NCBI GenBank assembly: GCA_021444005.1
Contig: JABUSB010000001.1
Span: 276,235-340,234 of the forward strand
Origin: Malacoplasma sp.
Lineage (GTDB): Bacteria; Bacillota_I; Bacilli_A; Mycoplasmatales; Mycoplasmoidaceae
Reading direction: 5' to 3'
DNA: 64,000 nucleotides
Under the pieces are notes generated by a model. The model saw nothing but the letters and a program-made list of their open reading frames with translations. It ran no database searches and had not been told where the DNA came from. Positions 33,821-59,406 of the stretch are shown here, in pieces (the stretch's first letter is position 1; every line of letters starts with the position of its first letter). The position numbers and the translations under genes are program-made.

Positions 33821-34585
33821 TTAAAATAAAACAAGAAATTCTTTTAGCAAAATTTGTTTCAAATTAAGCATATCATTTGCAATGGATAATACTTTATAAC
33901 GGTTAATATTAATTAAAGTTTGTTTAGTTGCTTCACAAACTAAGGGAAGAATAATAGTATCGTTAATTCAAATTGCACCAATTGCACTAGATTCATTTTC
34001 ACTTACTGGAATTTTATTAAAGTTTGCAAAACATTCTGGTACATTTGCATTTTCTTTAAATAATAAATTATTTCCTTCAATGTAATTCAAATATTTTTGT
34101 AAAGGTTCTGGTGAATCTTGAATTAAAACTACTTTATAACTTAATTCTTTTAAAATCTCACTTAATTGATTAATTCCTTCTTGGTTAGTTTTTTCAGATA
34201 GCGACACATAAAAAGTGTCATCTATTTGTAAAACATCTTCACTTGATACTAATCCTTCAAAATCAATAAAAAAGATTTTATCTAATGGGTAAAAACGGCT
34301 CAAATGTGCAGTAAGCATTATCTTTTGGTTATTAGTTGCAGGATCACTAAAGTTGTTTAAAATAACACATTTTTCTGTTGCAATACACAATTGGTTTAAT
34401 TTAGAAACAATACAATCTTTTTTGTCCCCTTTTAATTGGTGGACACGAACTGGTACATTTTTAACAAAATGAATTAAGGTTTCGTGCTCTTTAATAACTT
34501 TTAATCTGTCTCCAGCATCAGATGATTCTAAATTTTGATACGGTTTTGCAGGAGTTCTAAATATTGCATAATTAAATTTTTTCAT
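33821..34585 (-). CDS. DDAH/amidinotransferase-fold protein, probably catalytically degenerate
   Basis: A 254-aa protein resembling the guanidino-group-modifying superfamily (dimethylargininase/arginine deiminase). The N-terminus NYAIFRTPAKPYQNLESSDAG matches the DDAH start. The central SEDVLQIDDTFYVSLSEKTNQEG corresponds to 'GGDVL...YVGLSxRTNxxG'. The frame continues past TGA-Trp 33968 to TAA 33821-33823. The C-terminus, however, ends in a Leu/Ile-rich tail without the GG-x-x-C loop carrying the nucleophile, and no histidine is seen where the catalytic one should be. It may be an inactive relative or bind a guanidino compound. The fold call is moderate. Confidence 0.65.
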
Positions 34586-34673
34586 AAAGCTCCAAATAAT
34601 TTATTGTTAATATTATAAATTTTTGGCCTTGAAAATTGCTATAAAAAATGTAATTTAATCTCTTATGGTTACT

Positions 34674-34679
34674 ATAATC
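34674..34679 (+). promoter_or_regulatory. Probable -10 box for the coiled-coil operon
   Basis: TATAAT 84 nt upstream of the first gene (ATG 34764). It would give a leader of about 78 nt with no recognised riboswitch. No obvious Shine-Dalgarno precedes ATG 34764. Confidence 0.45.
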
Positions 34680-34763: not shown

Positions 34764-37700
34764 ATGACTAAAATAGAAAAGAATTATGATGTATTTTTTC
34801 AAAAAAATGCAAAAAACTTTGCCAATGACTATTTTTTGAAAAAAATAAAAAATAACTATGATGTAGTGGGTCAATTTTCATCAGATTTAAAGCAAAAATC
34901 AAGTGATAACCTTACCCCACAAACTAGTGTGAATGGGCAACAAAATAGTGCTACTAATTCTTTATCTTCTAATTCCTTGCAAAATGTCACACAAAACACA
35001 AATATATACCCTTCTATCAATCACGAAATCAAAGATACAAGAACAGTAATTAATGGTGGAAATTCAAACTCTAATCTTGAATCTAAAACTTATGATGTAA
35101 ATCCAATTAATAGTAATTCTGTTGCTGATGTTTTAGTTTCTAATTCTAGTGTTAACGATTTTCAAAACACTAATGTTGATACTGCTGTTGCAGACACTGA
35201 AATTAAAGATGTTACAGAAGACAATTCTGTTAATGTACAAAGCTTAAATGAAACAGATTATGCAGCTGCTGTAACACCAGTTGCTATCGAGCCAGAAAAA
35301 GAAGTTCAAATTCAAGAAGTTGAAGCAATTGCAAACAATTCACAAGATTTTCAAATTGATTCAATTCCTAAAACCTTTGATTCAGATTTTTCAGATTACT
35401 TAGATGATAATAATGATTTTGATTACCAAAATCTTTCTAATCAGTTAGATTATGAAACTAATAATTATGAAAATCTTGATTTGTATGATTATGAATCAAG
35501 TGAAAACCAAATTAACTATTTAAATGAAACTAATGCTAGTTTTGAATCACAAAACACTTCTTTTTATGAAGATGATGAAGGCGAAATTAAAGATATCCAA
35601 AACTTATTATCAAATTTAGATTTGGATATTAATGATCTAAATTCTGATAACCAAGAATTTTTTGAAGATTATTTTAATTATTTAACACGTCAAAAAATTA
35701 AAGAAATTGTTGAGAAAAAAATTGGTTTTTGTGATGAACAAATGCTTGATCAACTACATTCGATTTCAATTGATGAAAATTGAAAAGAATTAGATGTTGA
35801 AAAGTGATTGCTAAATCCAGAAAATATTAAAAACTTTAAAAATAAAAGTGCAGCAATCTCAAATGTTAAAGTTTCTGATTTGAAGTTAAACGAAGTTGAA
35901 TTGCAAAATCAAATTCCTACTTTTAAGTCTTCTAAAATTGAAGATGTTAATGCTTTTGTAATAAATGAATCAAATTCAGTTAAAGAAGTTAATAATACAA
36001 ACAACAACAATACTAATATTGAAACTGCTATCAAAAAAGAAAATGATTTGTTAGAAAAAATTGTTGATATTTTGTCAGCTAACCAAAAAAACCAAAAAGA
36101 TGTCCAAGACAAAATAATTCAAAACAAAACCAATTTTGTAAAACATAACAATTCTAAAAGATACTTTAAACCTAAACACAAAAAGGTTGACCTACCATTA
36201 GAATATTTAATCAAGATTACAAAATTACTAGAAAACAAACAATCTAGAAGCAATCGTCAATCTAATCACAAACAATTCATTAATGTTTCTTCAAATCCAA
36301 ATGACCCAGTTTTAAACAAAATTGGGATTAACCAAAAGCTTTTAGAAACTAAGGTTAATGACAAACTTAGTGTTTTAGAAGAAAAGATTGGTAATTTAAA
36401 CAATAACTTTAGATCTACCTTGATTGAAGAAAACTACCGGGTTTTGTTAATCAATAACCAAACTGAAACTTTAAAAAACTATTTGAATGAAAGATTAGCA
36501 AATCTTAATAAACCAAATCACTTAGTTTACCAACAACCCGGGGTAAATATTGAATTATTAAATTCAAAAAACCACGAAAATAAACCTCATATTAAAGAAA
36601 TTAAAGAAGAAAAAGGTTTAGATAATAAAGATTTAAGCAAAGATCTAAATACTTTTAAACACGAAATTTATAATAAATACAATGATTTAGATTCTAAAGT
36701 TAGTGCATTTAGCCAAATAAATTCAGATATTGCTAATAAATTTAAAGATTTTGAAAACTTAATTAAAACATTTGATAACAAAACTGTGCAAAAACAAACT
36801 AATGGTTTTGTTTTCCAAGAATTTGATTATCTTAATCCAAATGTTGTTAAAAATGATGTTGGATTTTCTAACAACCAAATAAAAGATAATGATATTAAAT
36901 CTGAATTTAATGCTGATTTTTTAAAAAATTTAGATACTAAAGTTGAAGAATTACCAAAAACAGAAGCAAATACTGATTTTAAAACTGATATCATTGATGA
37001 ACTTCTAAATGATAATTTAGCTGATTTTGGTGGACAAATAGACGATATTAAACCAAATTTAATAGCTGAGAAAATCGAAGTTTTTCAGGATAAAAAAGAG
37101 GAATTACTAATAAATGATGATCTTGGATCTGTTGATACTAACACGATAAATAATGTAGAAGAAGACTCACACACTTTATTTGAATTGGATCTTTTTGAAA
37201 ATAATAATGAAATTGATGAAGCTACTGATTCAATTAGTATAGTAGAGCCACAACAAGAAGATTTTGAAAAATCACAATCAGAAGAAGAAAAAGAAGAGGA
37301 AAAAGAAGAAATCTTAAATCTTGATGATACTGATTTTCTTGAATTAAATGAGATGCAAAAATTGTTAAACCAAGAAATTGAAGCAGTAGTTTTAGAAGAT
37401 TATCAAACTGAAAACGAAGTTACAACAAAACCACAAAACGAAGCTAATTACCTTGAAGAGTTTGACACTTATGATTTTAAAATTTGAGACATTACTAATA
37501 ATGATGAACAAGACGATAATTTAGAATTCAATCAAATTGATTTAAACAATAGTGATGATTTTGAAAACTTCTATGTTGATAATGAATCAAATACAGAAGA
37601 TACAAATTTTTCAAATCAAGCTACAAGTGATTTTGAAAATGATTTCAAAATAGTTTATGAAAGCAATGACGTTAGTGATGAATTTAATGTTTTAGTAGAC

Positions 37701-38579
37701 AACAACAATTCAGAAGAAACTAAAGTTGAAAATGAAATTAGTTTTGTAATTGATGAATTTGATGTTTTTGAAAATGTTGATTCACAAGAAGCAGAAGACC
37801 AAAAAAAAAGCACACAAAACACTAGTTTAGATTTGCTTGAAAATGATGCTGAAACAATTGATTATGAATTTGATGAAGACAAGATTTTAGATAATCTTAA
37901 CAAACTTGAAGACCAAGAATTAGAATTTGCAATTAGTGATAACCAAGATTTTGCAGTTAATGATCTTGTTGCTGAAGATAAATTGAGTAATGAGTGTTTA
38001 GAATTAGAAGCAACAAAATTTGTAAATTATGAAAATAAATTTATGTCTTATGTTGGTGTTACTCGAATTAACACCAATGAGTTTAAGCAAAATATTTCAA
38101 ATGATGGTTTAGATGATATCAATGCTTCTACAAATTCAGAAGAAAGCAGCATTAGTGACCTTAGTTTAGATAACTTAGAAGAAACTAAGTTAAATCAAGT
38201 AAACACAATGCCTCAAACACAAGAATTTGACCAATTTGAAGGTGACAAAGAAACTAAAATTGATTTTTTGAGCGATCCAATGGAAAACACATTGTTTGTC
38301 GATTACCAAAACAACTACTGGTTAGATGAAAATATTGTAACAAAGAGCAATAATGACAATTATAATTTTAATTTAAAGGAGTATCAATCAGAAAAGGATG
38401 AGAGCAAAAAATTAATTAAGAATCAAATTTTTGAAAAAAATGAATCTGAAATTGAAACTTTAAAAAATGAAATGCTTGAAGAATTAGATGATGTAATTCA
38501 AGATTTAAGGAATTTAAATGTCAAAGAAGGCCAAATTACCGGTTTTGAAGATTTGAAAATTAAAGTAAGAAATATTTAG
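34764..38579 (+). CDS. Large acidic Asn/Asp-rich protein, first gene of the coiled-coil operon
   Basis: A 1,271-aa protein of unknown family. An in-frame TTG 24 nt upstream is possible, but ATG 34764 gives a clean start MTKIEKNYDV. The first 330 residues are low-complexity, rich in Asn, Ser and Asp. A basic island of Lys/Arg/His lies around residues 455-500, followed by a short predicted coiled coil (about 530-580). Then come several hundred strongly acidic residues, including a Glu/Lys run near 830-850, and a final helical segment (ESEIETLKNEMLEELDDVI). TGA codons at 35781, 35805 and 37485 are Trp. There is no signal peptide or membrane helix. The next gene starts 9 nt after its stop. A structural role is inferred from composition and neighbours only. 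Confidence 0.82.
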
Positions 38580-38588
38580 AGATTGATT

Positions 38589-41500
38589 ATGAAATACGTT
38601 AATTTAGAGAAAATTAGAGAAGTTTTATTAAAAATAAGTCAGAAAAAACAAAATATTGAAAATACTTATTTTCAAACTTTGACTCACTTTAACGAAATTC
38701 TAAAATCTGATCCAAATAATAAAGACTTACTTATCAAAATTAGTGTTCGCAAAAAAACTTTAGATGACTCTGTTAACAAAATCATTATTTATTTAGAAAA
38801 TTTAACAATCGCATTATCTAATGCTTTTGAACAAATTAGTAATAATCAAGAATTATTAGATGATGGCGAAAATCAAGAATACTTGATTACAAAACCAATT
38901 ACCCCACAAGATTTAGACACTCAATTCGAATATGAAAAAGAATTAAGAAATTACAAAAGTAGTCAATCATTAGATTTTAGTATCTTGGAAAAAGAAGCTA
39001 GTGAATATGACAAAATCTCTAGCGTTTTTGATACTGTTATTAATGAAATTAATAAAGAATTTGAATATAGTGCCCCAAAAGAAGTGCGTAATGGACTAAT
39101 GAATGATAGTGAATATGTTTTTGATGACAAGTTGAATTTAATTGAAACTAGTCTTAGAAATGAAATTGAAAACAATTCAGTTGGTACTAAATTCTTGGAA
39201 GAGCAAAACAAATATTTAATGGATACATTAAATAAAGTTGCTACACAAAATGCTTTAACCCCACAAGGTAAAAACTTAGATAGTGAATTATATTTTTCAA
39301 CACTTGATAAAACTGTAAATGCTGCAGTTGAAAAATTTGGTGTTGCTTCTGAAAAGATGAGCAATGCAATTAATGTTTTATCAATTAACCAAATTGAAAG
39401 CCTTGAAAAATTATCCCTTCCATTAATTAAATCTCTTGAATCTACTTTGAAATCATTGACTCAAGATTTAGAAGTTACTAGAAATGAAAACAACTATTAT
39501 CGTACGCAATTGGATGAATATGCTAAAACAATTGCTGTGCTTCAAAAAGAAAACAATCTTAAAGAAAATGAGTTAAAAAGTTCTTATGATTCTTGACTTT
39601 CAAATTCAAGAAGAGTGAGTGAATTAGAAGAAATTGTTAATGAGCAATCTAATGACATTAAGTCATTTTATGAAGAAAAAAATGACATTATCACAATGCT
39701 TGAACAAAAAATTGTTGATACTGGGAAATTTATCAACAACATTATTTATGAAAAAGAATTATTAATTGAACAAAATTCGAATTTATTTGATGAAGTGAAC
39801 CGCTTAAAACAACAAGTATCTGGTGATTTAGATGGTTATATTAACACAATTTCACTTCAAGATTTAGTAGAAAAAGAGGCTAATAAAATTGTTGAATCCA
39901 AGATTCAAAGTTTAGTTAACCGTTACAAAGAAGAATTAGAACAAATTAAATCAGATTCGATAAGTTACTTTTTAAGTGTTAAAGATAATGATGAAAGAAT
40001 TTTTGAAAAACTAATTGAAGAAAAAGAACAAAACCAAAATGATGTAAGTGATGCTGTAAAAACACTTGAAACAAAAATTCAAAAGTTGGAAGCAAAGTGA
40101 GAGTACGACGCAAAACTAAAACAATCAACACAAGACTCATTAAATGATTTGAATTTATTGTTGGGTGAAGGACCATATTCGATGGTAGAACAAGAAAAAA
40201 CTTTTCTATCTTCTAAGTTTGACAAATTAGAACAAAGAATTGAAGAATCACTTGAAAGAGTCAAAACTTTAGAAGACGAAAAAGAGAAAGCACCAAAGCC
40301 AAAAACTTTTGATGAATCACAATTGGATGATCTAATTTTAAGTTCAAAAATTTATGGTGATATTACTAACCAACTTGTTCACAAAGACTTTGAAATTGAT
40401 GCCCTAAAATCTGAAAATTTTAGAATCCACCAAGAAAATTTAGCAATTAGTAGTGTACTTGATGAAACAATTGCCAAAATTGCTTCTAACAGCAATAAAA
40501 TGAGTGAAATTGAAACTTTGTTAACTAAACAAGAATATGAATTTATGATGCTTGATGAAGAAAAGAATCGGGTAATTGATAAATTGTATAATGCAATTAA
40601 TAAACAAGATGCAACTGCGGTTGAACAAATTGACAATTTAACAATTTTAAACAAATATGACTTTTCTAAATTTGCCAAATCAACAATTGATGACTATTTT
40701 CAAAAAAATGAAAATAGTCAAGTTCCAAGAGTTGATTTGTTAGATTATGTGAAACAAGAAGTGGCTAAAGTGATTGATGAAGAAATTGATGCACTAAAAG
40801 CACAATATGAACAAAAACTTAAAGCACTTGATGAAAAATATGATTACACACTGTTGCCTAAATTTAGACAACCTGTAATTTTTTCTCAACAGCCTTTTAG
40901 CAAAACAATCACTTTAGATTTTCCAAAGATTGATGATAAATATTTTGATTTAGAAGAAAATCTAGAGCTAAAAAAAGATTTACAAGAATATTTTGAATCT
41001 TTAAAGAATACAAATGAAGACATTGTAGTTGAAGAACAAATTGTTGATGAAGACCAAGAAACTCAAGAATTTGATAAACCTACTCTTAACTATGAATACA
41101 TTGGGGAACAAGACAACTTATTAGATGTTACTTTTGAAAAACAATTAAATCCTTGGGAAGAAAAAGAACAAACTCCACAAGTTGTTAAAAAAGCAGTTAA
41201 CAAAATTATTAAACACACAATCACAAACCCTAAAGAGAATGAATTAATTTTCAAACTTTCTAACCGTAATGATGATTTAGAAAACAAAATTAAAAATTTA
41301 CAAAAAATTATTAATGACAAATTCAATCAAGAAATTCAAAAGAACCGTGAAAAAATTGAATTAACTTATAACCAACCAGTTGTAGAATCTGCTCCAATTG
41401 AGTTTATTGCACCAGACTATGCAGCTATTCACAAAGATCTTTATAGTAACCAAATCAACCAAAATCAAACAATTAACAACAACCTTCAAAAAATGCTTGT

Positions 41501-41762
41501 TGATTTTAAAGTTGAACAAAACCAACAACTTGATAATTTAAATCAAAAAATTGATAGCATTAACAAAAACATTAGTGAAACACACATTAGTAATGAATCA
41601 AACTGAAGTGTTTTCGAAAATAGTCTTAAGGAGAACAATAATTCACTTTTAGAAAGAGAAATCATTAATAGTACTAACAGGCTTTTAAATTTAGAAAAAG
41701 AATTACTAGTTTTAGAAACTGAAATTATTAATGAGGAAAAGAAAGTTATTGTGGAATTGTAG
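38589..41762 (+). CDS. Coiled-coil protein, second gene of the operon
   Basis: A 1,057-aa protein, mostly helical coiled coil, starting MKYVNLEKIREVLLKIS. Long heptad stretches cover about residues 300-480 and 500-640, interrupted by acidic linkers (about 780-850). The segment around 39621 (SELEEIVNEQSNDIKSFYEE) matches the signature found repeatedly in the 3,256-aa protein of this operon. The last 150 residues return to Gln/Asn-rich coiled coil. TGA codons at 39594, 40098 and 41604 are Trp; the gene ends at TAG 41760-41762. The next ATG follows after a single nucleotide, implying translational coupling. No enzyme motif, signal peptide or membrane helix seen. Confidence 0.83.
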
Positions 41763-41763
41763 T

Positions 41764-44100
41764 ATGAACGAACGAGAAATAAATAAAAGCTTTTTGTATA
41801 ACAGAATTGATGAATTCAAAAAGAAGTATACTGAGTTGTTAATGCAACTTGATAATTCTTCAATTTTGAATCTTGATAAATTTAACAACATTGAAGATTT
41901 TCAAAACAATGATAATGTTTTTGCATTATTAAAGGAAAATGAACAAGTTGCTAAAAATTTAGTAGTAATTCGTGAAAGTATTAAGAATAAGTTAATTAAC
42001 TTACAATTTTTAGCTGCCAAATCAAAAAACGAAAATGCAGATGCATATGCAAATCTTTATGACTTTGATGTTTTAAATGATGTTCGTCACTACTATGAAT
42101 CAAGTTTTTCTAAAAACCAAATGCAACAAATTTTAAATGATATTGATACTGCAATGTCAAAAATTGAGCAAATGTCAACTTTCATTGAACAAAAAGTAAT
42201 TCCAAAATTGAATCAAGAAGAAGAGCAAAATAAGGAATTAGCAGTTTTACTTAATGAGTCTCAAAAAAGAATTGAGGAATTGTTAACTGAAAAACAAATT
42301 GATCAAAAAACAATTGCTGATCTTTCTCATGCTAATAATGAACTTGAAACTGAATATCACAAATTTGTTGATATGTGAATTGAATTAAACCAAAAAATAA
42401 TTAGTCTTGAAGGACTAATTGATGAAAATGATATTCACAACCGGGAAATTTCTGAAGAAAAAGACAAAATCATTGATTCTTTAGAAAAGAAAATTAATGA
42501 ACTAATGTTGGATTTAGACCCAACCCACATTAGTACTTTTAACCAAGACAATAGCCCAGTTAAAATTTGTGAAGCATTTGTTGGTTTTATTTCAAGAATT
42601 TTTAATGAGTCTTTAAAATGTGTTTACACTTTTGAAAATAACTATTCTTGTAAAATCAAAGATTTTAATAAATACCGTGATTTGCTAACCAAAGATTTAA
42701 CAAACTCAAAAGTTAGAAATGACGCTAGTCAAACATTAATTACTAACCTTTCTAAAAATGATTTTGTTGATGTTGAAAAAGATGATATTTTTGAATTTTT
42801 AAATTTACTAAGAGACATTAAAAATCTAGTTGCATTTAAAGAATATCTAAATCTTAATTTTGTTAATTGTTTTGAAAACATTGAACAAGTTTTTGTTTAT
42901 TTACTAGATGAATTTAAATTAGTTTTAATGGATGAAGCTGATGTTTTATCAAAACGAAGTGTTAAAAGATTAAATAGCTTTATTGTCCAAATTGAAAGCT
43001 ATTTAGAAAAAGTTTCTGTTTTGAAAAGTCAATTTATTTTTTTCATTGATTCATTAAATAGTTTTGTTAACAATACTAATTTTGATATGGTAGACATCAA
43101 ACCTTATTGAGCTGAAGCGGCTTATGGTTTTAATGAAATTTTAATCAAGGTTAACAAAGACTTTTTCACAATTATTAAACTAATGCAAATGTTTTTTGCA
43201 TATTTAAGATATTGAAACAGCGGAGATTTAAACCAAGTGGATTATGAATTTAGTCAAATCTTTAACCAATTACAAGACTTAAGTTTGAATCAAGATTTAA
43301 ATAAATTGCAATATGCTCCAATTCAAAAAAAGCAAACACAAATTAAAGACTATGAAGTAAAGCAAATTCCTGTTGAAACAGAAATTGAAGTTGAAGCAGA
43401 AGAAGTTGAAGCAAATGTTGAAGTTTTAAATTTAGTAGAAGACAATAGTGCAACAATTAGTGAAAACGACTCTGAAGAATCACTATCAAATGACATCAAT
43501 TCTTTCTTTAATGAACTTCAAAAAAATTATGATGTTGAAAATAATGTTGCAAAATCTAAAGAAGACTTTGAAAAGTTTATTAATAACTTTGAACAAAAAG
43601 TTAATTTTGATCAAAACATAATTAAAGCTGATGCTAATGAAGTTGATGATTTTGAAAAAGACCTTGATAAACAATTAAATGATTTAGCTGATTCTGATTT
43701 ATTAAAAAGCTATATTGGTGGTGAAAAATTACAACAACAAATTAGTGACTTTACAACATTTGCCACAAAGATATTTAAAGATTTAGAAAAAACAGATTTG
43801 GATCTTGAAGTTAAAGAATTTGCAAAAAAACAATTGTATGAAATTTTTGTGAATGAAAAGATTTCTGTCAAAAATAAACTAATTGCAATTGAAAAGATTT
43901 TGAAGGAAATTTTTAAAGACCAATATTATAAAAAATCCTTCTGTTATTGGATCATAACCTTTAAAAAATATTTGTTAGATAAAAAATACAATATAAATTT
44001 AAAATTAAAGATAGTTAAATCAAAATTAACAAAATTAAAAATTCTAATTGATTTAGAAAATGAAGCAAATTTCTTAAGTTTGTTTGAAAATGAGGCTTAA
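41764..44100 (+). CDS. Coiled-coil protein, third gene of the operon
   Basis: A 778-aa protein of unknown family. I use ATG 41764 (MNEREINKSFLYNRIDE), 1 nt after the previous stop; a longer in-frame extension would overlap the upstream gene. Residues about 130-250 are coiled coil, with SLEGLIDENDIHNREISEEK weakly matching the operon signature. A middle region (about 260-520) looks more globular, rich in Phe, Tyr and Asn. An acidic linker follows at about 540-600, and then a helical, basic C-terminus. TGA codons at 42376, 43108 and 43213 are Trp. The next gene begins 20 nt downstream. Confidence 0.82.
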
Positions 44101-44120
44101 TTTGGGAAAGTGAGAATGCT

Positions 44121-47100
44121 ATGAAAAACAATAAAAAAAATACAAATAAAATTAGTGAATTGAAACAAAAATTAAAGAATGTTGTTGAAGAATTTTACGA
44201 TATTGAAAGTGATAAAGCAAATTATGATTTGTTTGATCTCTCATCCGATAATGAAAAATTCTTAGAACAACAAAATTTGGAACTTGATAAAAGTTTAACA
44301 GCAATCGAGGAAGATAATTCAAAGCTTTTCTCAAATGTTTATGCTCTCAAACAAGAAGTTGAAAAAGCACTAGCTAGTTTAGACAAAGATTCTCATTTTT
44401 TGAACCTTTTCAAACAATTTATTAATTTTCAGCAGAATAACAAATTAAGTGATTTTGATTTTTCAAATGAAGATATCAAAAAAGATAATTTTGACAACTT
44501 GCACAACTCTAATATTTCATCTCTAAAGGATGAAATTTTGCAATTATTAAAAATTGAAGACAAAACTGCAAAAGAATTAGATTCTAAAAGTGATTCTAAT
44601 CAAAACCAATTAAACTTAGAAAACTACATTTCTTTAAATTTATTTAATTCTTTACAAGATGTTTTTGAAAAAGAAAATGCCAAAATTGCTGTAATCAAAG
44701 AATCATTGCAAGATTTTGTAAATGATTTATCACTTGATAAATTTAATAGCTTTGAAAATCAAAACAAAATTAGCAATAAGATCAAAACTTTAAAAAATGA
44801 GTTTTTTAGAAATATTAATGCTGTTTTTGAAAACAATGATGCCGTTTCAACTCGCAAAGAAGCTAAAATTGTTAAAGATAGTTATAAAAACACAATTACT
44901 TCTTTATATGATGAATTAGAAAAAAAATTAATTAGCTTTATTGAAAGCAATTCTTTCAATAGTGCACCAACCTTGATTGAGCAATCTAAAAACTATGTTG
45001 ATGTTAGCAATATTGATGTTTTATTTAAAGAAATTAGTGAATTAGAAAATAAGATCAATCTTCTTAAAGCTTCACACAACACTACTGACTTTTTTAGTGA
45101 ATTACTAAAGAATTTTTTGTTTTTAAATAAGATTGATGAAAGCTCAATTAAAAAAGAATTAGATGACAGATATTTTGAAATTTGTGAAAAATTTATTAAA
45201 AACATTGAATTAAAAAATAGCATTATTAAAAAATCAATTGATAATTTCAATGTTTACATTGTTGATAACTGTCTAAACTATGTTAGAAAAATTAATGATT
45301 TTTATGCTAATTTCAAAATTAATAATGCAAATTTAAATAGTATTGAATTATCAAACAATAATTTCTTTATTCAAAAAGCAATTGAATGTTTTGAAAGTTT
45401 AGCAAATAAATCAAAAGCCATTTTTGATGAATTAGCAATACTTAGCTCTAAATTACTTAGTGACATCTCTTTAGAATCTTTTAAAAATAAGCAAATTGAT
45501 TTTTCTTGTTTCATTAACTTAATCCAACAAAATGTTAAAACTTTTTCAAAAAACATTGAAATGGTTATAACAAGTTTTAGTAATGAAGTTAACAAACTTA
45601 CAGGATTGCCAATTTCTGGTATTGAATTGATTCGTAACGAAATCCCTGCTAAGGTTAGTGAAGTTTTAAGCTTTATTTCAAAAGTTCCTTTAGAACTTGA
45701 AGAAATTTTAGCAGATGCAAAATCAGCTAACATTGATTTTTACAAATTTAAATTTTCAAAATTAGAGCACGTTTACAACATATTACAAAACTATAAAATT
45801 GAAACAATTGATAGCAATTTGGGCTACAACCAATCTAATAATTATATTGATGTAAGATTAGAACGTTTGGAAAGACAATATTCTAAAATCTTTAATTTGT
45901 TAGACCCAATTGCTGCAAGCATTAATAAACCAAATCAAGAGTTGCAAAATTTTAAACAAAATATTGACCAAAAAATTGATGATTTAATCAATAAGTTAGC
46001 ATCTGATCGTAAAGATTATGAAACCGAGCATAATGATATTATTCGTGAAATTCTTAAACAAAATGAAATGGGTAAAGAAAACGTTATTAATATCATTAAA
46101 AGTTTTGAAGAAAAAAAATTACATTTAATCTCAGAAGAAGCGCAAAAAAGAGTTATTGAAAACAGTAGTAAGTTAGTCGAATTAGAAAACTTGCTAGCTT
46201 TACAAAACCAAGAAATTGAAAGTTTATTATCAGAAAAAAATGAATTCATTAGTGAAATAGAAGATATTTTAATTCACAAAAAACACAAATTAACTGATGA
46301 AAAAATTGCTGATCTAAAAGGATCAATCAATGAAGTTATTACAACATTCAATAACCGGATTTCTGATTTTGAATATAATTTAGATCGCAAACTAAGTTCA
46401 ATTGATTTAGAAGCAGTTTTGGAAGATTCACAAAATACACAACAAAAAGAGTTGTTAAACGAAATTGAACAACGTTTAACTGCAAATTATGGAATTGTTA
46501 AAGAACACGTTAAACAAGACTTTAACCAAATTCTAGATAGTGTTAATAACTTAAATGTCGCTTATGCTGAATTTGCTAATAAAACCCCAAACTATGAATC
46601 ACGATTCAATGAAATTAATGAACAATTTAGCCAATTCTCATTCTTGTTAAAAAACATTACTGAAGCACTACAAGCTAAAAACAGCGAGCAATACGAAGAA
46701 GTTAATGAATTAGTTAAGAGTTTAAATACTAAATTTGAAGGCTTAATCCAAGGGTTAAAAGAAGAAAACAGCAAAACTTCTGCATTATTTAATAAAAATG
46801 CCAACAAGGCTAGTAAAAGACTGAAAAGTATCTTTAATAAATCAATTTCTGAAATTAATGAGAAATTCAACACTTTATTATCTGAAGTAAAACAAGAAAA
46901 CAAATCACTTGAAATTAAACAAAGTGATGTTTTAGATACAGTAATTGCATCTAACCAAGCTCAAAAAGAACAAATTGCTTTCTTGATTAATGAAATTAGC
47001 AACATCAACCGTGACTTCTTATCTGAAATGGAAGCAAAACGAATTAATTCTGAAAACCAAAAACTCATTGAACTTGAAAGATTAATTAATTTACAAAATG

Positions 47101-50100
47101 ATGAAATCGAAAGCTTAGTTCACGAAAAAGACGACTATATCCAAGAGGTAAAAGATTTCTTAATTAATAAAAAAGATGAATTAACTAACCAAGGGTTAAT
47201 TGAATTAAAAGTTAATTTGAATAATGTTGCTGATGATTTCAACAAAAAAATTGAAGAATTGGAATATGCTTTTGACCGTAAGATTAGTGAAATTGATTTA
47301 AATACAATTGATCAAACAATTTTGAATAATCAATCAGAATTCTTAAAGAAAGTTGAGGACACACTAATTATCAATTATGACTTAGTGCGTAATGAATTTA
47401 AACAAAATATTGGTCAAATATTAAGCAATATTAATGATCTAAATCTAACATTAGCAAATTCTAATTTCCTAAAAGATTTTGAAAACCGATTCAATTATAT
47501 TGACCAACAATTTGAACAATTCAGATACTTACTAAAAACTGTAACTGACGGATTAATTGATAAAAACAATAAATTATCATTTGAAGTTAATAGCATTATT
47601 GATGATCTAAACTCTAAATTTGAATCATTAATTAAAGGTATTAAAGAAGATAATTTAGCTTCAATCAATTCTTTAACTACCTTCTTTAGTGAAAACAATT
47701 TAAGTTTAAAAAATGAAATTCAAAGTGATATTAGTTCATTCTCAAGTCGTTTAAACAATTTGAGTGACGAATTTAAAAATACAGCAAACTCAATTGCAAA
47801 TGATCAATTAGACAAAATTAATTATGTTATTGAATTAAATAACAAGACCCGTTTTGAAATCTTAAATCTAATTAAGAACATTGAAATTAATAATGAAAAT
47901 TTCTTAACAAAATTAGAAGAAAAGAAAAATATTGAAACTAATTTAAAACTTAAAGAATTAGATGAATTAATTGAATTACAAAATAATGAAATCGAAGCTT
48001 TATTGGCTGAAAAAAATGAATTTATTTTTGATTTGGAAAATTATCTAATTACTAAAAAAGACCAATTAGATAATAAAAAGATTGCAGAATTAGAACGATC
48101 TGTTGAGGCAATGATTTCTTCACTTGATTACAAAATCATTCAGTTAGAAGTTAACTTTAACAACCGCTTTAATGAATTAGATTTAAAACCAATTGAAAAT
48201 GCTTTTGCTAGCCAATCTGATTTATTAAACTCAATTGAAGAAAAATTATCTAATAACTATGAAATTGTTAAACAAGAATTAAGTCACGACATTAACCAAG
48301 TGTTAAGTGGTGTTGGTGAATTAAACACTTTATATAAATCATTCCCATTCGAAAAATACGATTCAAAATTTGTTGATATTAACAACCAATTTGATCAATT
48401 TAGATTCTTAATTAAAGATGTAATTAATAGCAATTTAAAAAACATTGATGAAACTAAAAAAGTTGATGAATTAGTTGATGTGATTAATTCTAAATTTGAT
48501 GTGTTATTCAAAAACCTAAAATGAGAAACAATTAAATCTATAAAATCACTTAATAACAAAATTAAAAACTCAGAATCACGTATTTCTAAACAATTAGATT
48601 CTTCAGTTGACAAGGTTAATGCGAAATTTAAATTATTTGTTGATGAAATTAAAAACCAAAACAAAAACTTTGAAAATAGTCAACTTGATACAATTTATGC
48701 GATTATTGAAGGCAATAAAGCCAATCAATATGAAATTTTGAGATGCATTAAGAACTTAGAGTTATCTAATGCTAACTTCTTAGATGAAATGCAATCACAA
48801 AAATTAAATTATGAAAATTCAAAACTTAAAGAATTAGACCAATTGATTGAATTGCAAAATTCAGAAATTGAAGCACTAATCACTGAGAAAAATGAATTTA
48901 TCAATGATATTCAATCATTCCTATTTGATAAGAAAAACAAAATTGATAACCAAAACATTTTAGATTTAAAAGTAACTGTTGATAATGCGATTTTAGGATT
49001 TAATGAAAAAATCGATAATCTTGAAAAAGACTTTGATGCTAAACTTGCTAAATTTGATTTGAAATCACTATCTGATTTAATTTCAAGTGAACAAGCACAA
49101 TTCTTTGATTCTGTACAAAACTCATTGACTTACAATTATGAAATTGTTAAATCTGAATTCCAAAGTAATTTAAGTGAAATCATTAATAGTATTGTTGACA
49201 TCAATGCTAACAATGATGCTAAATTTGAAAGCTTAAATGAACAACTTGATGGATTTAGATTCATTCTAAAAGACTTGGTAGAAAGCTTTAATAGAAACAG
49301 CAAAGAATCTGCAATTGATTTAGCTGCTGTTACACAAAACTTAGAAAATCTTTTTGAAAAAGAAATTCAAAAAGTGAAATCTGAAGCTTTTTCAAATAAC
49401 AAATTCATCGTTTCTAAAATTAATAAGATAAACAAGAAATTATCTAAAAATATTGATTCAAATATTTTAAATATGAACACTAAGTTTGATGATTTAATTT
49501 CCCACATTCAAACACAATCAGACTTAGTTATTCAACAATCTAATATTTTAGAAACATTGATTGAAGTTAACCGTCAAAGCCAAAAAGAGTTAACTGATTA
49601 CATCACAAATTTAGAAAGTACAACACTACAAATTGCAGATGAGTTTAAAGAAATTCAAATGGAAAAACAAAGCTTGAAGATGAAAGAATTGGAAAGCTTA
49701 ATTGAATTGCAAAATACTGAAGTTGAAGCTTTAATTCAAGATAAGAATGATTTAATTTCTGACATTGAAAGCTTCTTAAGAGAAAAGAATGAAATGATCA
49801 CAAACCAAAACTTTGTGAAATTAGAAAACACAATTAAAAACATTGCTGATTGCTTTGACAAGAAAATTGGTAATTTAGAAGTTGATTTAGACACTAAATT
49901 AGCTTTATTTAATGCAGATTTCTTAAAGCAAAATACAGAATTTTACAAAAACAATTTAGTAACTGACATTGAAAAACAATTAAGCTCAAATTATGAAATT
50001 GTGCGAAATGAATTTAAAGTTGAATTGAGCAAAATTTTAGATAGTGCTGAAACTAAATTTGACAAATTTGCATCACAACAAGAAGAAATTAACCGTAGTG

Positions 50101-53100
50101 GTTTATTAGAATTGAATTACCAATTTGATGCATTTAAAGATTTAGTTGTTAGAAAACTAGAAATGATTAACGATCCTTCAAATTCAATCCAAATAAAAGT
50201 TGATGAATTGTTAAACAACATCACTATTGAATTTAAACGACTTGTAAATACATTAGCTTCAGAATACGAAGTTTCTAATGAAAACTTAGTTAATAAGGTT
50301 GATGAATTAAACCATTACTTAATTGAAAACCTTAATGATAACTTGTTAAATGTTGATAAGAAATTCGATAATTTTATCGATACTGTTAATAAAAAACTAC
50401 AAGACTTTGAAGTGCAACAAAGTGATTTGATAACAACTTTATTCAATGCTAATGAATTGTTTAGAAAAGATGCAAATGATGCAATTGCTAGAATCGAAAA
50501 AATGATTCCCCAAATTTTAGATGCAAATTTATCAAACCGTTACAACCTTGACATTGATAACTTAAAGAAATTGGATGAATTAATCGATTCGCAAAACCAA
50601 GAAATTAACGAATTGATTAATGAAAACAACGATTACATTGATAATGTTGAAAAGTTCTTAAGAAATTCTCAAGATGCTTTTGAAAATGAAAAACTAAATA
50701 AAATTGAAAAATTAATTAGTGATATCAACGATAAATTTGATGCAAAAATTAAAAACTTTGCTGATGAATTTAATGCTAAATTAAACCAATTTAATTTAAA
50801 TGATGAAGATTCACTAGAAAATGAATCAATTTTTGGAGTGTGTAAAAAACTTGAAAGAAATTATAGTCTTTTACAACAAGAGTTCACAAGTAATTTTGAT
50901 GCAATTTTTGAAACTTTAAAAAACTTGGATATTAATGAAAACAAAAACTACATTGCAAATGAATTAGAACAATTTAAATATGAAATCATTGATAAGTTTG
51001 AGGCACACGTCGATGAAATTAATACTAAATTTGCAGGTTTAGTAAAAGATGTTGAAAACACACAAGTGGATGCAATTAGTTTAATTTTGGATTCAAATAA
51101 AATTAATCAAAAAGAAATTAGTTTATTTTTAGATAACCTTAAAAATTATGGTGATGATTTAGTTGCAAAGTTTGGGTTTAATGATAAACAAAAAATGGTT
51201 GTTTTACTACAAGAATTAAAGGATTTAATTGAACTTCAAAGTGAAGAAATCAAATTATTCTTGTCTGAAAGAGAAAGATTTATAGTTGAAACCGAAACTT
51301 ATATTAACAAAATCTTAACTGCAAAGAATTTCTATGCAAATACTCAAGAAATTGTTAATGATTTTGTTGCACCAGTTAAGAATGTTTTAAATGAATTCAT
51401 TAATAATTTTGGTAAAAAACTATCAACTTTAAGAATGGATATGACTAAACGCATTTCTTTAGTTGTAAGAGATTCTAAAATGGTTTCTAAAGATTTTAGA
51501 GATAAAGTTTATTTAGTGCAAAAAAATCTTGCTGATAACTATGATTTCTTAAATCAAGACTTCAATTTATTTTTTGAAAAAATTAGTGTTATGATAGCAG
51601 ACTTGGAAAATGGGTCTTGCAACCTAACTTTTTATGCGAAAATTGATGAATTACAAGCTAACTTTAATAAAGTAAAAGAAATCGATTACCCCCTTGATAA
51701 GATCTTTAAAGACAATGCTTTGTTTAACCAAATTGATGATTTTGTTTCTGCCAAATTTGAAGCAAACAAAAACCAACTAAACCCCGAAATTTTACAAAAA
51801 TTAGATGATCTTGATAACTTAGAATTAAATACAAAAATTAAAAACGCTAATACTTGATACCAAGACTTATCGTCTTACATTGAAAACAAAAACAAAACAA
51901 CCACAAACTATGTTTCTTCAAAACTTGAAGATTTAGAAAAAAAAAGCAATAAAACACCTTTTAGCAACCAAGTTAATCAAAAAGACTTAGAAAAAACTTA
52001 CCAACAAGTTTTAAATAAGTTTTTAGAAATTTCCAATTACATTAGTCTTGTTAAAACAAATAGCTTAAAACTAAGTTCAAAATTGACTGCTAATTTAGTT
52101 TCAGACACACAAGTTAATGACATCTTTAAATGATTCAAGAAACTATTAGATTCACAAAACGAATTAATTGATAAAGTCCTTTTGCAAAACCAAAAATACA
52201 CTAATTCAATTAATGCAATTTACAATGACAACAATTTAAATGAAAATGCTAATGATTTAGAAGAAATTCTAGAATTGCTAGAAAAAAACACAACTTCTAT
52301 AAAACAAGAACTTAAATCATTTGAGTTAGAAATTAGCAAGTTAAACAGCATTATAATCGAAGCAAAATCGTCTCAAGAATTTAGCAATGACTTCTTATTA
52401 GATTTAAATGATGCAATTAGAAATAACATTGATATTTTAGGAGGTTTGTTCATTAACTTTAAAGTTAAAAAAGATGCAAATTTAATTAAACTACAATGTA
52501 TCGAAGATTGATTAGCACAAATAAATAATAGTGTTAAGAGTTTAACTAATTCTCAATTCAATCAAGAAAACTTTTCTAAATTCAATAATGAAATTGACAA
52601 AATTAAATCCTTACTTCTGTTTTGTCACCTTGATTTAATCCTTTTAAAAGAATGTGAAATTGAAAAGACATATGCTAACAGTTGCGAAAATAGTGATGCA
52701 TCAGTTTTAGAATTTAAAAAGATTGTCTTGCTAGAAGACTTAATTAAATACACAAAAGATTATTTAAAAAACATCTACTTGCAAAAAAACAAACTAATTA
52801 GTTTACTAACACAAGACAAAAACATTGATAACTACTTAGTGGAATTAAAAGTTAACCAATTCTATGAAAACTTGTTTACAAAACTTTGTACAGACCAAAT
52901 TAAAGATCTTAAAGAAATTGTTAATAAATTTAACCAAATCAACTTTAAAAATAATTCAAAATTAGAAGAGTTATTATCTGCTAATGCAATAAAAAACAAA
53001 AAGGAATTATATGCTAAAGTTGCTCAATTGGAATTAAAGATTGGCCAACTATTTGATGTAATTGAAAATAAGAAAAAAGAATTTATTGATTTAATCTCTG

Positions 53101-53891
53101 CTAATTGATTGGATGATGACAAAGCAGTTAATGCAATCTTTACTCAATTTGAAAAAGCAGAAGCCAAAATTAAAAATGAATATGAGCTTGAATTAAATGC
53201 TTTTAAAAACCGTATATATGATTGAAAAGCTGCAGAGTTAGACAATTATAAACAACACGTTAGTGATCTTGAAACAGAATTAAATGAATTAAAAAATAAT
53301 GAATCACTAAAATCAAATAAAAACGATTTTGAACCGCTTGATAATTTAGTTGAAGAATTAAATCTAGAAATTGATTCTTTTGAACAAGAAAGAGAAAACC
53401 AATTCAAAATCGCTAAATCAAAACTTGAATACCTAAATTCTTTAGTTAGTCAAAATCAAGAAGAAATTGTAAACAATGTTAATGTCGATAAATTCAAATT
53501 AAATTTAAATAATGAAATTAAGCAATTTATTGAAGAAGAATTTAATGAATTTGAAAAAACATTTACTAAGAATTTAGCTCAAGTTAAAGCTGGACTTAAT
53601 TTAATGAAAGCAAGTCTAGAAGTTGAAGCTAATGATAGTGATGCTGAAATTGACAATCCCGAATGGTTTAAAAGTTTTGATGATAAGTTAAAAAACATTG
53701 AAGACGAGATATTCAAAAACGATAACCATTCTCAAAAAAATGTAATTCAAAACTCACATAATAATATAAAATTAAATGTAAGCAATGAGAAAATTAAAAA
53801 TTTTATTGTTGAAACAGAAAAAAAGAAAAAAGAGATCGAAGGGTTTTACCAAAAAGTTGAAGAACTGATAAATCATAATAAAAATAATTAA
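44121..53891 (+). CDS. Giant 3,256-aa coiled-coil repeat protein, fourth gene of the operon
   Basis: A single frame of 9,771 nt; I read through every TGA (48522, 51855, 52131, 52509, 53106, 53222) and found no other stop. Residues 1-680 are helical and irregular. From residue 687 to about 2,580, seven modules repeat about every 290 residues, each opening with a variant of ELxxLIxLQxxEIExLxxEK. Later in a typical module come NYEIVKxEF and FxQFRFLLK blocks. The last 670 residues are further coiled coil ending in a Lys/Glu-rich tail. There is no signal peptide, membrane helix or enzymatic motif. At this length an extended helix would span several hundred nanometres (inference), comparable to a mycoplasma cell. 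The likely role is a filament, spacer or spring in an internal skeleton. Confidence 0.86.
46179..51860 (+). repeat. Seven tandem protein modules of about 290 residues
   Basis: Module starts, taken at the Glu/Lys of the ELxxLI signature, are 46179, 47070, 47955, 48831, 49686, 50568 and 51213. Spacings are 891, 885, 876, 855, 882 and 645 nt (297, 295, 292, 285, 294 and 215 residues). All are multiples of three but vary, so these are diverged protein repeats rather than recent DNA duplications. Conserved blocks within modules: the opening signature, a 'F-x-x-K-I-x-x-L-E' block about 60 residues later, NYEIVK near +115, and an F/R-F/Y-L-L/I-K block near +160. The sixth module is shortened and the seventh most diverged. 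Confidence 0.88.
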
Positions 53892-53930
53892 TTCAATTTT
53901 TACAGAAACAAAAGGTTAAGGAAATAAGCT

Positions 53931-56285
53931 ATGAGTGATTTTAAAAATAAAAATGGGTTTGACTTTGTTGAATCATTTCAAGAAGAAAATAAAGATTCAA
54001 CTGTTGAAACCAATGTATTAATTCGAGAAGAAGCAAAATATATGCTAAAAAACTTCACCCTTTTTGACTCTAGAAGACACTTTAAAGATTCACAATACAA
54101 AAATGGTAATTTTCTTAACTATGTTGATCAAAAATTTCGGCCTCATTTTCAAAAATTGGAACAACAAGAATTAGATAATGCTCAAAAAATTCTTGCTTTA
54201 CAATCAGATTTTCAAGAATCTAAATCAATCTTGAAAAAAATTGAAAATGATATGGCAACCTTTGCCAATAATTTTGTTAATGCTTCACCAAAAATTGAAG
54301 CAAAAGCAATTGAGAATGAAGTTGTTGCAAAAAAGGAAGAACCTTTAGTTTATGTTGACAAAAACTTTGTTGATGCAAATCTTGAAGCTGAATTAATGCA
54401 AAGTTTTGAAAATTTAGTCAATTTAAAAATTGAAGAAGCGACAGACAAACTTAATAGTTTGAGTGAAGAAATTGTTGATACTAAAAATAGTTTCAATAAT
54501 TTCATTAATAATTACAAACTTAATTTAGAAACTTTAAATTCACAACAAAATGATCTAAACAATTATTTAGCAAGCTCTAACAATAGTTTTATTGAAGAAA
54601 TCAAATTCAACCACGATAAATTTGACAAAATCGAGACTGAAATCCAAAAGATTTCTAGTGTTTGAATTGAAAGTGATAAACTAATTGCTAAACTTGAAAA
54701 ACTTTTATACGAAATTAGTGACACTAAGTATGGTTACAACCAAGATTTAAATGAATTGATTAGTGAAATTAGAAATCAAACAATTGAAAATAAAGACATT
54801 CTAACTAAGCTAAATTTAGAAATTGAAAATGCAAAAGCTAAGATTGAACAATTAGCTACTAACCAAAATGATATTTATGAAGCTACTAACAAAAACGATA
54901 GTGCAATTCAAAAAATTAATACTGAGTTAAGACAATATGATGCTAAAAACATTGAAAACTTTGCTGTTATTGACCAAAAAATCGATGCCCAGGATTCTCG
55001 AATTAAAACTTTAGAAGATAAAGTAGAGGATTTAGTGAATGTTGAAAACTTCTTAGATTCAGTACTATCTTCAAAACTATTCCAAAAATCATTGGAATCA
55101 AAAATCTCTAATATGATTTGTGAAAACAATAACTATTTGGGTGATGAATTCAAGTTTAGAATTAATCATTTAGAAAACAAATTAGATATGGATTTAAATG
55201 ATTTTAAATTAAACCAAAAGAACCTAATGCAAAATGTGCAAAACCTTGAAAGCAATGTTTATGACATTAATAGTGAAATAACATTAATTCACAAAAAATA
55301 TAACATCAGTGATCAATTAATGTTGATTGAAAACAAATACAATTCTTTATATGGTGCTGAATCTGAAAAACTAAAAAAAGCAATTGAAGAACTTTCTAAT
55401 TACATTAACAACTTTGAATTGGATGAAAATGAAGTTTATAAATTGTTAGAAAATTCTGTGGAATTATCTGCAATTATTCGAGAAAAGATTGCACAAGCGA
55501 TTGATGAAAAAATCAACCAAATTGCAGTTGAAGTAAATGCGTTAACAAAAGATGTTGCAGTTTATAAAGATGAAGTTGTTAGCAATTATGTTAGCAATGA
55601 GAAGTTTAATGACATTACCTTGAATGTTAAAAATGAAGTTTTAAATAGTTTATGTAATGAATTAAACTCACGTGATAAATTAATTGAATTACACAATGAT
55701 GAAATTTTAAGAAACTACAAAGCGACATTAAAATTTACTTCACTATTAGGTGATCTTGAAGCATTGGTAATGCAACAAACTAATGAAATTGATGGCTTAA
55801 AAACTGATTATGATAATTCATTTACTTCAGTTTTAGAAAAAATAACTTTCCAAAAAGCACAACTTGAAGAATTAGCAGAAGTTTTAAAGAAACAAATTTT
55901 AGACTTTGATTTTTACAAGAACAATGCTTCAATTAAAAAAGCTTTTGAAGTTTGAAAAAATGATTTGAAATCAGATTTAATTACCCTTGTTAAAAACTTG
56001 GTAGAAGATGAAATTAAGGGTAAATGTATGGTTTCATATGCTAAAGAAGACAAAGCTACAATTAAAAAAGCTGCATCTGATGATTTCTTTGTAAACCGTG
56101 TTAAAGATATTTTAAACCGTCTAGATAATGAATCACTAAAAGCAACATTCAAAACAAAAGTTGCTGATCTTAACTTTAAGATTGATGATTTGAAAAAAGA
56201 ACAACCTACCGTTAAAGATGACGATATGGAATGATTTTTCGAAAAGGAATATAACGAATTTGTTTCCTCTAAGCAGAAACAATAA
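53931..56285 (+). CDS. Coiled-coil protein, fifth gene of the operon
   Basis: A 784-aa protein starting MSDFKNKNGFDFVESFQEE after a Shine-Dalgarno-like aaggttaaggaaa. Residues 1-70 look non-coiled, with some charged and aromatic residues. From about 80 to 700 it is near-continuous coiled coil. Around 55752 (residue about 608) the segment DLEALVMQQTNEIDGLKTDY matches the operon signature. TGA codons at 54663, 55953 and 56232 are Trp; the gene ends at TAA 56283-56285. It lies 39 nt after the giant gene and 20 nt before the next. No known domain recognised. Confidence 0.83.
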
Positions 56286-56305
56286 AGTTAGGAAGGATAA
56301 ATAAT

Positions 56306-58516
56306 ATGATTAATGATCAAAAACAATTATCTAGATTAGAAGAACTTGAACAAAATGAAGAATTTCAATCACTTTCAGAGGATAAGAAAATTATCTTAAT
56401 TGCTGGTGAAAAAATTCTTGAGATGAACGAATATTTAAAGAGCTTTTTTGGAAAATTAGAACTGTTTGCATCTGATAGCTTTAATGCCCAGAGTTTCAAA
56501 AACCAAATAATGGATGACATTCTTTCTAATCTTAAACTTCAAATTAATGAACAAAAAAGTCTTTCAAAACAAGAAGTATTAGATTTAATTAATTCCCGTT
56601 ATTTTGAAGAGATTTCCACATTAGAAAATAAGTTTCAATTCACTGCACAACAAACTATTAATTCAGTTACTGAATCTTTTAGCGAAGCATTACAAAGAGT
56701 TGAGTCATTAAATTTATTCCAAGTCCAAGCTCGTGAGGAAATTAGAAGAAGTCAAGACAAGATTTACATTTTAGAAGAAGAGTTATTAAAGCAAAAAGAA
56801 CAAAACGAATCATTAAGAAATTTGATTGATGAAAAACTAGCATCGATTGATGACTTAGTTAAATACCAAGAATCTAATGGTGCTACTGGATTTAACTTAA
56901 TTGATTCAAACTTTGAATCATTCACTGAATTAGAAAATTATATTTCCACCCAAGCAAGAGAGGTTGCAGAAGAAAAAATCGAGGAATACTTATTAAACCA
57001 AGATACCTTTTTTGGAGATGGTAACCTTGATGAAAATGAAATGGAGGAGATGTTAAATAACTGAAGAGCTTCTAAAGAAAATTTTGACAAAATTTACCAA
57101 TCACAAATCGAAAACGGTAATCGCTTAATTGAACTTGAAAAACTAATTGATTTGCAATCACAACAAATTGAATTATTATCCCAAGAGCGAAAAGATTTAA
57201 TTTATGCCATTGTAAATTTAATTAAGAATAAAAAGTTCAATGCTCAGGAAATGGCTAATTATTTAAATGATCAAGTTGGTAAAATCAATTCTGTAGAAGA
57301 TGAAAAAAGGATTATCAATACTTTAGAAAAATCAGATTTAGACTTTTTAATTAACAATCAAGCTAATCAAATTATTAAAGATAAATTTGATGAATACACC
57401 CCATATGAATTTGTGAGTGACCCCAATGAGCATAATATGTTTAATGAAGAGTCTTTATCACTTCAAGATGAAATTGATAAACTTGATAAAATCTCTGCAG
57501 ATAACAAAGATAGTGAAACAAGACTAAGAGAAATTAATAAGCAAATTTATTCACTTCAAGATGAGTTGGAAAGACAAAAACTTGAAAATGAAAAATTGCA
57601 AGATGAATTGTTTAATGAAATTAAAAAAAATGCTTTTTATACTTCAAATAATGGTAATATTAACCAAGACTGTGAATTTTGAGAATATTTAAATGGAGAT
57701 GACATGAAATACAATTACTATAATGGTAATAAACCAATTCCAGGCACTAAGATAACTAGAATTAACAACTATCGCACTAACAATGACACAAATGATTTAG
57801 TTGACCAAACCCAAACTATTAATTATGTTGCACCACAAGAAGTTGAAAACAATTGGGAAGTTGAAAACCAAAAAATCATTGATTTAGAAAACACTGTACA
57901 AAGACAAGAAGCTGAAATTAACCGTTTAAAAAATTTAGAACAAGACCAAATGTTACGTAAGCAAAATGCAACTAACAATCAAAAAGATTTTATGCATTCC
58001 CTTGAAAAAACTTTGCAACAATTAAATGAGTTATCAAAGGTTCAAGCACAAACAGTTTATGATTTAAAAGAACAATCTCGTAAGCTGGATGAAATTGAAA
58101 GAAAAGTTAAATCTAATAAAGTTAATGAAAATTTAGATGAAATTATGCATCAAAAATATGCACAACGTGACAACTCATATTATGAAAGTTTAAAGAAAAT
58201 TGAAGATGAACGTCGTAAGATTGATGAAACTCTAGAAGTTGAACGTTTAAGATTATTAACAGAAATTAGCTTAGGTACTAAGAAATTAAACGAATTACAA
58301 CAACAAGCTGTACAAGAACAACCTAAAGCTGCACCTGTTGTTGAACAAAAAGTTGAACAACCTGCACGTAAAGGATTCTTTGGCAGATTTGGTGGAAGCT
58401 CAAGCGGAAGTACATCAGTTACTGGGGAACAAATGAAGAAAAGACGTCAACAAATCTTTTATGAAGTTAGAGTTCACTCTAATCCAAAATTAACAAGAGC
58501 TGATATCGAAAAATAA
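56306..58516 (+). CDS. Coiled-coil protein, sixth and last gene of the operon (possible internal start at 57704)
   Basis: A 736-aa frame, open throughout when TGA codons 57062 and 57680 are read as Trp. Residues 1-270 and 560-680 are coiled coil. At 57131 (residue 276) the signature appears as ELEKLIDLQSQQIELLSQER. Near residue 460 the sequence changes to a Tyr/Asn/Pro-rich linker (NYYNGNKPIPGTKI), preceded in the DNA by 'tggagatgac' directly before ATG 57704. That looks like a ribosome-binding site, so a separate 270-aa product may also be made. The C-terminus has a Gly/Ser-rich GRFGGSSSGSTS linker and a basic tail ending LTRADIEK. A strong terminator follows. Family unknown. Confidence 0.8.
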
Positions 58517-58617: not shown

Positions 58618-59406
58618 TTATTGGGATACGATGACAGTAGTTGGTACGATCACAATATCAAAAAGTTTGTAACCTTTACGAAGTACTTTTATTACTTTGT
58701 TAGTAGCAAAGCCTTCTTTTTTTTCAGTTTCGAATGCTTGCATAAATGCAGCATCAAATTCATCACCCACATTAACATTAATTTCATTGATGTTGTTTTG
58801 GTTTAAAAAGTTTTTAAACATTGATAAAAACATTTGAAACCCTTTTAAATAATTTGCAATTGCTTCATTATTGGTTTTTGAATTCACTGCTAACTCAAAG
58901 TTATTAATGATATCAATTAAATCAATTGCTGCTTCTTTTAAAGCATATTTTTTATAATGCTTTAATTCTTGGTCATATTTTGCTTGGTATTCACTAAGTT
59001 TTAAATTAATTTGGTTTTGTGCTTCTTGACTCTTTTTTAAGATGTCATTTTTGTAATTTAAGTTCGTTAAATTGATTTGGTTTTCAAGCGTTTTAATACG
59101 ATCTACTAATTCATTGTTTTTGTTCATTAAATCTTTGATTTTATGATTCAAGATTTTGTTTTCTTTTTTTAAATTAAATTCAATATGATTTTGGTCTTTT
59201 GCACTATCTTTTTCTAAATCAATTTGTTGTTCATCTAATTCTTGATTTTCAAGATTATCATCTATATTTAATTCATTTTCTTGATTTAAATCTTCTTGTG
59301 CTTTTTGGTTTTGGTCTTGTTTTATTTTTGAATTTAAATTAGCTTTGTTTTCTGAATTGTTATTGTTTTCACTATTTTTGTTTTTGTCCTTATTGAATTT
59401 CATCAT
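58618..59406 (-). CDS. grpE: Co-chaperone GrpE (DnaK nucleotide-exchange factor)
   Basis: A 262-aa protein. The first 85 residues are a low-complexity, Asn/Glu/Gln/Lys-rich acidic extension longer than in most GrpE proteins. A long helix (about 85-150) and the conserved core follow: a LLDIIDNFE-like segment seen as AAIDLIDIINNFELAVN, and a C-terminal beta domain ending VLRKGYKLFDIVIVPTTVIVS, which is diagnostic. Two consecutive ATGs occur; the first (59406) overlaps the dnaJ stop as TAATG, indicating coupling, and a ggaga Shine-Dalgarno lies in the dnaJ end. dnaK and hrcA are not in the window. Confidence 0.93.
   Translation of the reverse strand: MMKFNKDKNKNSENNNNSENKANLNSKIKQDQNQKAQEDLNQENELNIDDNLENQELDEQQIDLEKDSAKDQNHIEFNLKKENKILNHKIKDLMNKNNELVDRIKTLENQINLTNLNYKNDILKKSQEAQNQINLKLSEYQAKYDQELKHYKKYALKEAAIDLIDIINNFELAVNSKTNNEAIANYLKGFQMFLSMFKNFLNQNNINEINVNVGDEFDAAFMQAFETEKKEGFATNKVIKVLRKGYKLFDIVIVPTTVIVSQ

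Follow-up and report, generated by a model that had tools for sequence, protein, structure and literature searches.

A six-gene coiled-coil operon of Malacoplasma with a shared 40-residue signature: a candidate internal scaffold of the attachment organelle

What does a Malacoplasma cell build from six large coiled-coil proteins encoded by one run of adjacent genes? The locus lies in a 64,000-nucleotide stretch of a Malacoplasma sp. draft assembly (here, the window), and a preliminary description made from the letters alone had proposed an undescribed internal cytoskeleton. Under translation table 4 (TGA = Trp), the six same-strand genes were reproduced exactly, with gaps of 9, 1, 20, 39 and 20 nt from gene A to gene F. 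The products sum to 7,882 aa (~7,900 had been claimed), or 2.4% of the 983,880-base draft assembly.

34764..38579, + strand: gene A, 1271 aa
38589..41762, + strand: gene B, 1057 aa, coiled coil
41764..44100, + strand: gene C, 778 aa
44121..53891, + strand: gene D, 3256 aa, repetitive coiled coil
53931..56285, + strand: gene E, 784 aa, coiled coil
56306..58516, + strand: gene F, 736 aa
58552..58583, usable on both strands: terminator hairpin, 13-bp AU-rich stem with T runs on both strands

The stem 3′ of gene F (−12.9 kcal/mol, z −6.7) agrees with the strong bidirectional terminator that had been proposed; a pattern scan overlooked it because the stem holds few G-C pairs. The candidate promoter proposed before the operon fared differently: a TATAAT is located at 34673-34678, upstream of gene A, but promoter-like sites numbered 2 vs. 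3.7 expected by chance, so that the promoter has no statistical support.

A homologue of gene F was detected by single-sequence search in 10 of 10 genomes of the genus and in none of 49 others. All six genes were found in the same order in G001, G005, G006, G007 and G009, the relatives with enough contiguous sequence, and in the window; gene A of G005 is a fragment at a contig edge, and the G001 copy of the operon lies at 179,569-203,553. G001 is probably M. penetrans HF-2, and G009 probably M. iowae. Because the long frames keep their order across the genus, chance open frames are excluded, and the operon is a genus trait. Compared with G001, protein A of the window is 32% identical over its best segment and the other five products are 40-53% identical; gene F is the most conserved member of the operon. 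A single-sequence scan of the genome contigs for F gave nothing, because the peptides chosen are not conserved; the alignment-based scan returned seven relatives.

In the relatives examined, the gene for elongation factor P (efp) directly follows gene F. In the genome analyzed here efp is on contig C7, and grpE and dnaJ (58618-60578, − strand) adjoin the operon, which points to a rearrangement that ended at the 3′ side of the operon. On the other side, the divergent neighbour (33821-34585, − strand, 254 aa) belongs to no Pfam family and has a counterpart with 57% identity in the same place in G001. The M. penetrans locus tag MYPE1510 (DDAH), known from a paper, was not located near the operon.

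The composition of the six proteins is that of acidic, coiled-coil-like chains, as had been described. Asp plus Glu make up 17.6-21.2% of residues, Gly accounts for 0.8-2.6% and Pro for ≤2.0%, and cysteine is nearly absent. Helix-type hydrophobic periodicity was observed in 18-37% of sequence windows vs. 7-12% once the sequences were shuffled, and was weakest in proteins A and F. The highest 19-residue hydropathy values were only 0.42-1.22, compared with 2.8-3.1 for true membrane proteins in the window, so that none of the six has a membrane segment. Inspection of the six translations revealed no signal peptide or lipobox. Large repetitive mycoplasma proteins are often exposed at the surface, and the products could be taken for secreted or surface adhesins; with a hydropathy maximum of 1.22, no lipobox or signal seen and almost no cysteine, we consider this very unlikely.

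When all six proteins were compared with Pfam and NCBIfam, no domain reached its cut-off and only sub-threshold coiled-coil matches were obtained. Homology to a known enzyme or secreted family was not found in these databases, and the earlier statement that the proteins carry no signal peptide, membrane segment or enzyme motif stands. Among the weak matches was that of E to the coiled-coil arm of TIGR02169 (25.9 bits), as might be expected if the operon encoded SMC-like or other DNA-associated coiled coils. The match, however, covers the arm only and compares with a cut-off of 729 bits, and the six proteins yielded no ATPase head with Pfam or NCBIfam (nor any other ATPase domain with Pfam); such a function appears extremely improbable.

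A PDB sequence search with the F family and protein C returned no family. The AlphaFold models are all or nearly all helix, at low confidence (pLDDT 55 for F and 67 for the D unit), and the best Foldseek matches in the PDB were generic helical bundles and BAR domains, none with an E-value ≤0.001. In the D-unit model, helices of ~48, 35 and 44 residues surround the signature described below and are followed by one long helix, although the model is too uncertain for naming a fold.

Proteins B to F (five of the six) have in common a 40-residue signature, KLxELExLIxxQNxEIxxLxxEKNxxI, which was first spotted by eye and afterwards recovered by profile. The preliminary description had overlooked it. 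The copies in the window are the following.

39612..39731, + strand: signature B1 (residue 342), W-L-x-N just before it
40497..40616, + strand: signature B2 (residue 637)
42394..42513, + strand: signature in C (residue 211), W-I just before it
46170..46289, + strand: signature D1 (residue 684)
47061..47180, + strand: signature D2 (residue 981)
47946..48065, + strand: signature D3 (residue 1276)
48822..48941, + strand: signature D4 (residue 1568)
49677..49796, + strand: signature D5 (residue 1853)
50559..50678, + strand: signature D6 (residue 2147)
51204..51323, + strand: signature D7 (residue 2362), the weakest
55743..55862, + strand: signature in E (residue 605)
57122..57241, + strand: signature in F (residue 273)

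A profile built from D copies only matched F with E-values of 8e-8 to 2.5e-7 and yielded no reversed-sequence match. Upon iteration it picked up B (twice), then E and C (the latter in species with complete genes). Sequences that are themselves part of an iterated profile necessarily receive strong E-values; the case for the signature is made by the first-round matches, profile-profile tests with reversed controls, and exclusivity. In the profile-profile tests, the probability was 97.1% for B-C vs. 0.2% for its reversed control, 93-97% for D-F, 91% for B-F, 70-94% for B-D and 68-92% for C-D (ranges span two alignment settings and two profile lengths), and the reversed controls for these pairs reached ≤12%, with values of ≤0.5% beside the matches of 97% for B-C, 93-96% for D-F and 91% for B-F. 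Protein E is weakly linked (B-E, 65%; core profile, 10% vs. 0.5% reversed). One block-shuffled D control scored 2.7e-6, most likely because real D motif blocks stayed together; the controls relied on are the reversed sequences, not the block-shuffled ones. In the whole genome, 12 signature matches were obtained at E-values ≤2.3e-8, all of them inside the operon, and the next best match had an E-value of 0.5.

The positions of the signature are fixed across species. Protein B carries two copies, 295-311 aa apart across species (295 aa here), and D carries three to seven per species (seven here), mostly 285-319 aa apart, with a period of ~295 aa that the DNA repeats in gene D also show. The length of D varies between 1620 and 3317 aa and follows the number of copies (r 0.92 over five species), a correlation expected from repeats and for that reason not evidence that D acts as a ruler.

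Since coiled coils converge easily, the signature could reflect convergent coiled-coil sequence instead of common descent; the profile match of E to the long unit, no better than that of its reversed control, would fit such an origin. Exclusivity to the operon within the genome, fixed positions across species with a 295-aa step in both B and D, and negative reversed controls for B, C, D and F all argue to the contrary, and convergence is in our judgment improbable. A signature present in five of the six proteins and in no other gene of this genome most likely means that they evolved from one building block. It is not known to have been reported earlier.

Other conserved segments are found in the first and last genes.

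35673..35837, + strand: conserved domain of A, 55 residues, YL...K(I/V)(K/R)E...W...W L.NP.N, one copy per genome
57713..57772, + strand: NYYNG..P.PGTKITRINNY block of F, nearly invariant
57872..57931, + strand: partial second signature of F, KIIDLENTVQRQEAEINRLK, matched to W-x-x-N-Q-K sites of the sister-genus F proteins
58430..58513, + strand: C-terminal tail of F, KKR.QQ.FYEV..H..PKLTRAD.EK, conserved and common to the sister genus

Protein A, very acidic (net charge −149), is the sole member of the operon without the signature. Its 55-residue domain gave a single strong match in nine of the ten genus genomes (E-values 2.7e-20 to 2.1e-29) and nothing strong in the rest of the family. The partial second signature of F is weak by itself in this genome.

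With the F-family profile, divergent relatives were detected in a sister genus within the family. There the locus consists of two genes, a 3334-aa coiled coil and then an F homologue of 404-489 aa (G011, contig C5, 54276-66171, L028 and L029; G020, contig C27; G029, contig C49). The giant protein is complete in G011, where efp comes next after the F homologue, and partial in G020 and G029. The sister genus was tested with a profile of Malacoplasma B and C copies only, extended by the preceding W-[LI]-x-N. This profile matched the giant protein with an E-value of 1.4e-14 and the three F homologues with 2.2e-9 to 1.8e-6, compared with 0.056 for the best protein outside the locus and 0.37 for the best reversed match. 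We conclude that the sister-genus locus is a reduced form of the operon. Strong signature matches were found in 13 of 320 genomes of the order, all from these two genera. Four other genomes gave single weak matches (E-values 3e-4 to 8e-4), which were taken as coiled-coil noise. What is new here is the signature, its exclusivity to the operon and the reduced locus of the sister genus.

This distribution bears on whether the six proteins make up a general cytoskeleton (serving cell shape, cell division or the positioning of the chromosome) and not one specific to an organelle. F is present in 10 of 10 genomes, most of them MAGs of uncultured cells, and a reduced form occurs in the sister genus, as a general function would predict. 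On the other hand, all mycoplasmas divide and segregate their chromosomes, whereas the signature is confined to two genera, and a polar organelle is present in those genus members whose morphology is known (PMC4134286, PMC9282661). A general cytoskeleton is, on this balance, possible but rather unlikely. The members of the clade that have been studied carry an attachment organelle whose interior holds a cytoskeleton (PMC4134286), and M. penetrans glides with the protrusion in front (PMC9282661).

Our preferred reading, with a probability of roughly 0.68, is that the operon supplies the Malacoplasma attachment organelle, or an equivalent cell pole, with its main internal scaffold, built on a shared module. 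An internal structural role is the reading with the best support, because the proteins have no membrane segment, enzyme motif or known family, the signature recurs in five of the six, and the set is vertically conserved in an organelle-bearing clade. We infer co-assembly, a polar location, a mechanical role and a single ancestry of the module. Counted against the scaffold are the weak link of E, the lack of the signature in A, the low-confidence models, the lack of a significant Foldseek match and the fact that most of the genus members covered are MAGs of uncultured cells.

We propose that (i) B to F have a helical module in common as their core, in which the 40-residue signature would mark where long coiled coils come into register or associate with one another; (ii) D would chain up to seven modules in ~295-aa steps into a long rod and possibly acts as a ruler; (iii) B, C, E and F, with one or two modules, would join or cap the assembly; and (iv) A, which is highly acidic and has a single small conserved domain, may serve as a flexible linker or adaptor. 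Assembly of the six products probably takes place inside the cell.

Two other frames of the window deserve mention. A 918-aa protein (12568-15324, + strand; 28% Asp + Glu, net charge −160, 2.8% Cys) has repeated short F-D-x-F-F segments, a basic coiled-coil tail and no Pfam family; its relative of similar size in G001 (1238444-1241176) matches at the two ends only. It is a possible partner of the scaffold. A single 814-aa frame (2396-4840, + strand) combines BspA-type leucine-rich repeats with an N6/N4 DNA methylase domain, and its relatives match the methylase part only.

The word "undescribed" in the original proposal is uncertain, because M. penetrans proteomics of 2017 may already include some of the products. 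In that work Distelhorst et al. reportedly obtained, from detergent-insoluble M. penetrans proteins, 12 candidate components that are biochemically like M. pneumoniae organelle proteins. These proteins come from the same clade as the operon, and a possible overlap between the two sets is the main caveat on novelty.

Mycoplasma attachment organelles probably evolved on more than one occasion, and detailed knowledge of their molecular parts is limited to the lineages of M. pneumoniae and M. mobile. The operon supplies a concrete, clade-restricted parts list and a shared signature for the M. penetrans/M. iowae lineage, which yielded no EAGR-box protein. The convergent evolution of bacterial polar scaffolds thereby becomes open to testing, since contacts between the proteins are predicted from the signature and organelle length from the varying number of repeats in D.

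The M. pneumoniae organelle core (HMW1, HMW2, HMW3, P65 and TopJ) is likewise internal, non-enzymatic, acidic and coiled-coil-rich, in a wall-less host with a polar tip. That type of organelle is marked by the EAGR box, known from HMW1, P65 and TopJ, and by a P1-type adhesin in the same genome. No match to the EAGR box (PF16713) or to the P1-type adhesin (PF12378) was obtained in ten Malacoplasma genomes, compared with 18 and 4, respectively, in the control relative G015, in agreement with the preliminary description, which had seen neither. Conversely, the Malacoplasma signature is absent from M. pneumoniae-group genomes, and as judged by the signature the scaffold would be unrelated to that core.

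HMW2 sets the length of the M. pneumoniae organelle, at 0.15 nm per residue (PMC8191905). Compared by length only, the product of gene D is almost twice HMW2, and it has regular 295-aa steps. At the same rise, a fully helical D would extend up to ~490 nm vs. ~270 nm for all of HMW2; the rod would be shorter if the helices that surround the signature are folded back on themselves, as the low-confidence model suggests. By analogy with HMW2, D could have a length-setting role.

The gliding machinery and jellyfish cytoskeleton of M. mobile are made of lineage-specific large proteins too. It works with Gli proteins anchored in the membrane and with relatives of ATPases, whereas the six Malacoplasma proteins, compared at the domain level only, have no ATPase domain or membrane segment. 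Judged by its sequence, the operon would add non-homologous parts to a kind of structure that is already known.
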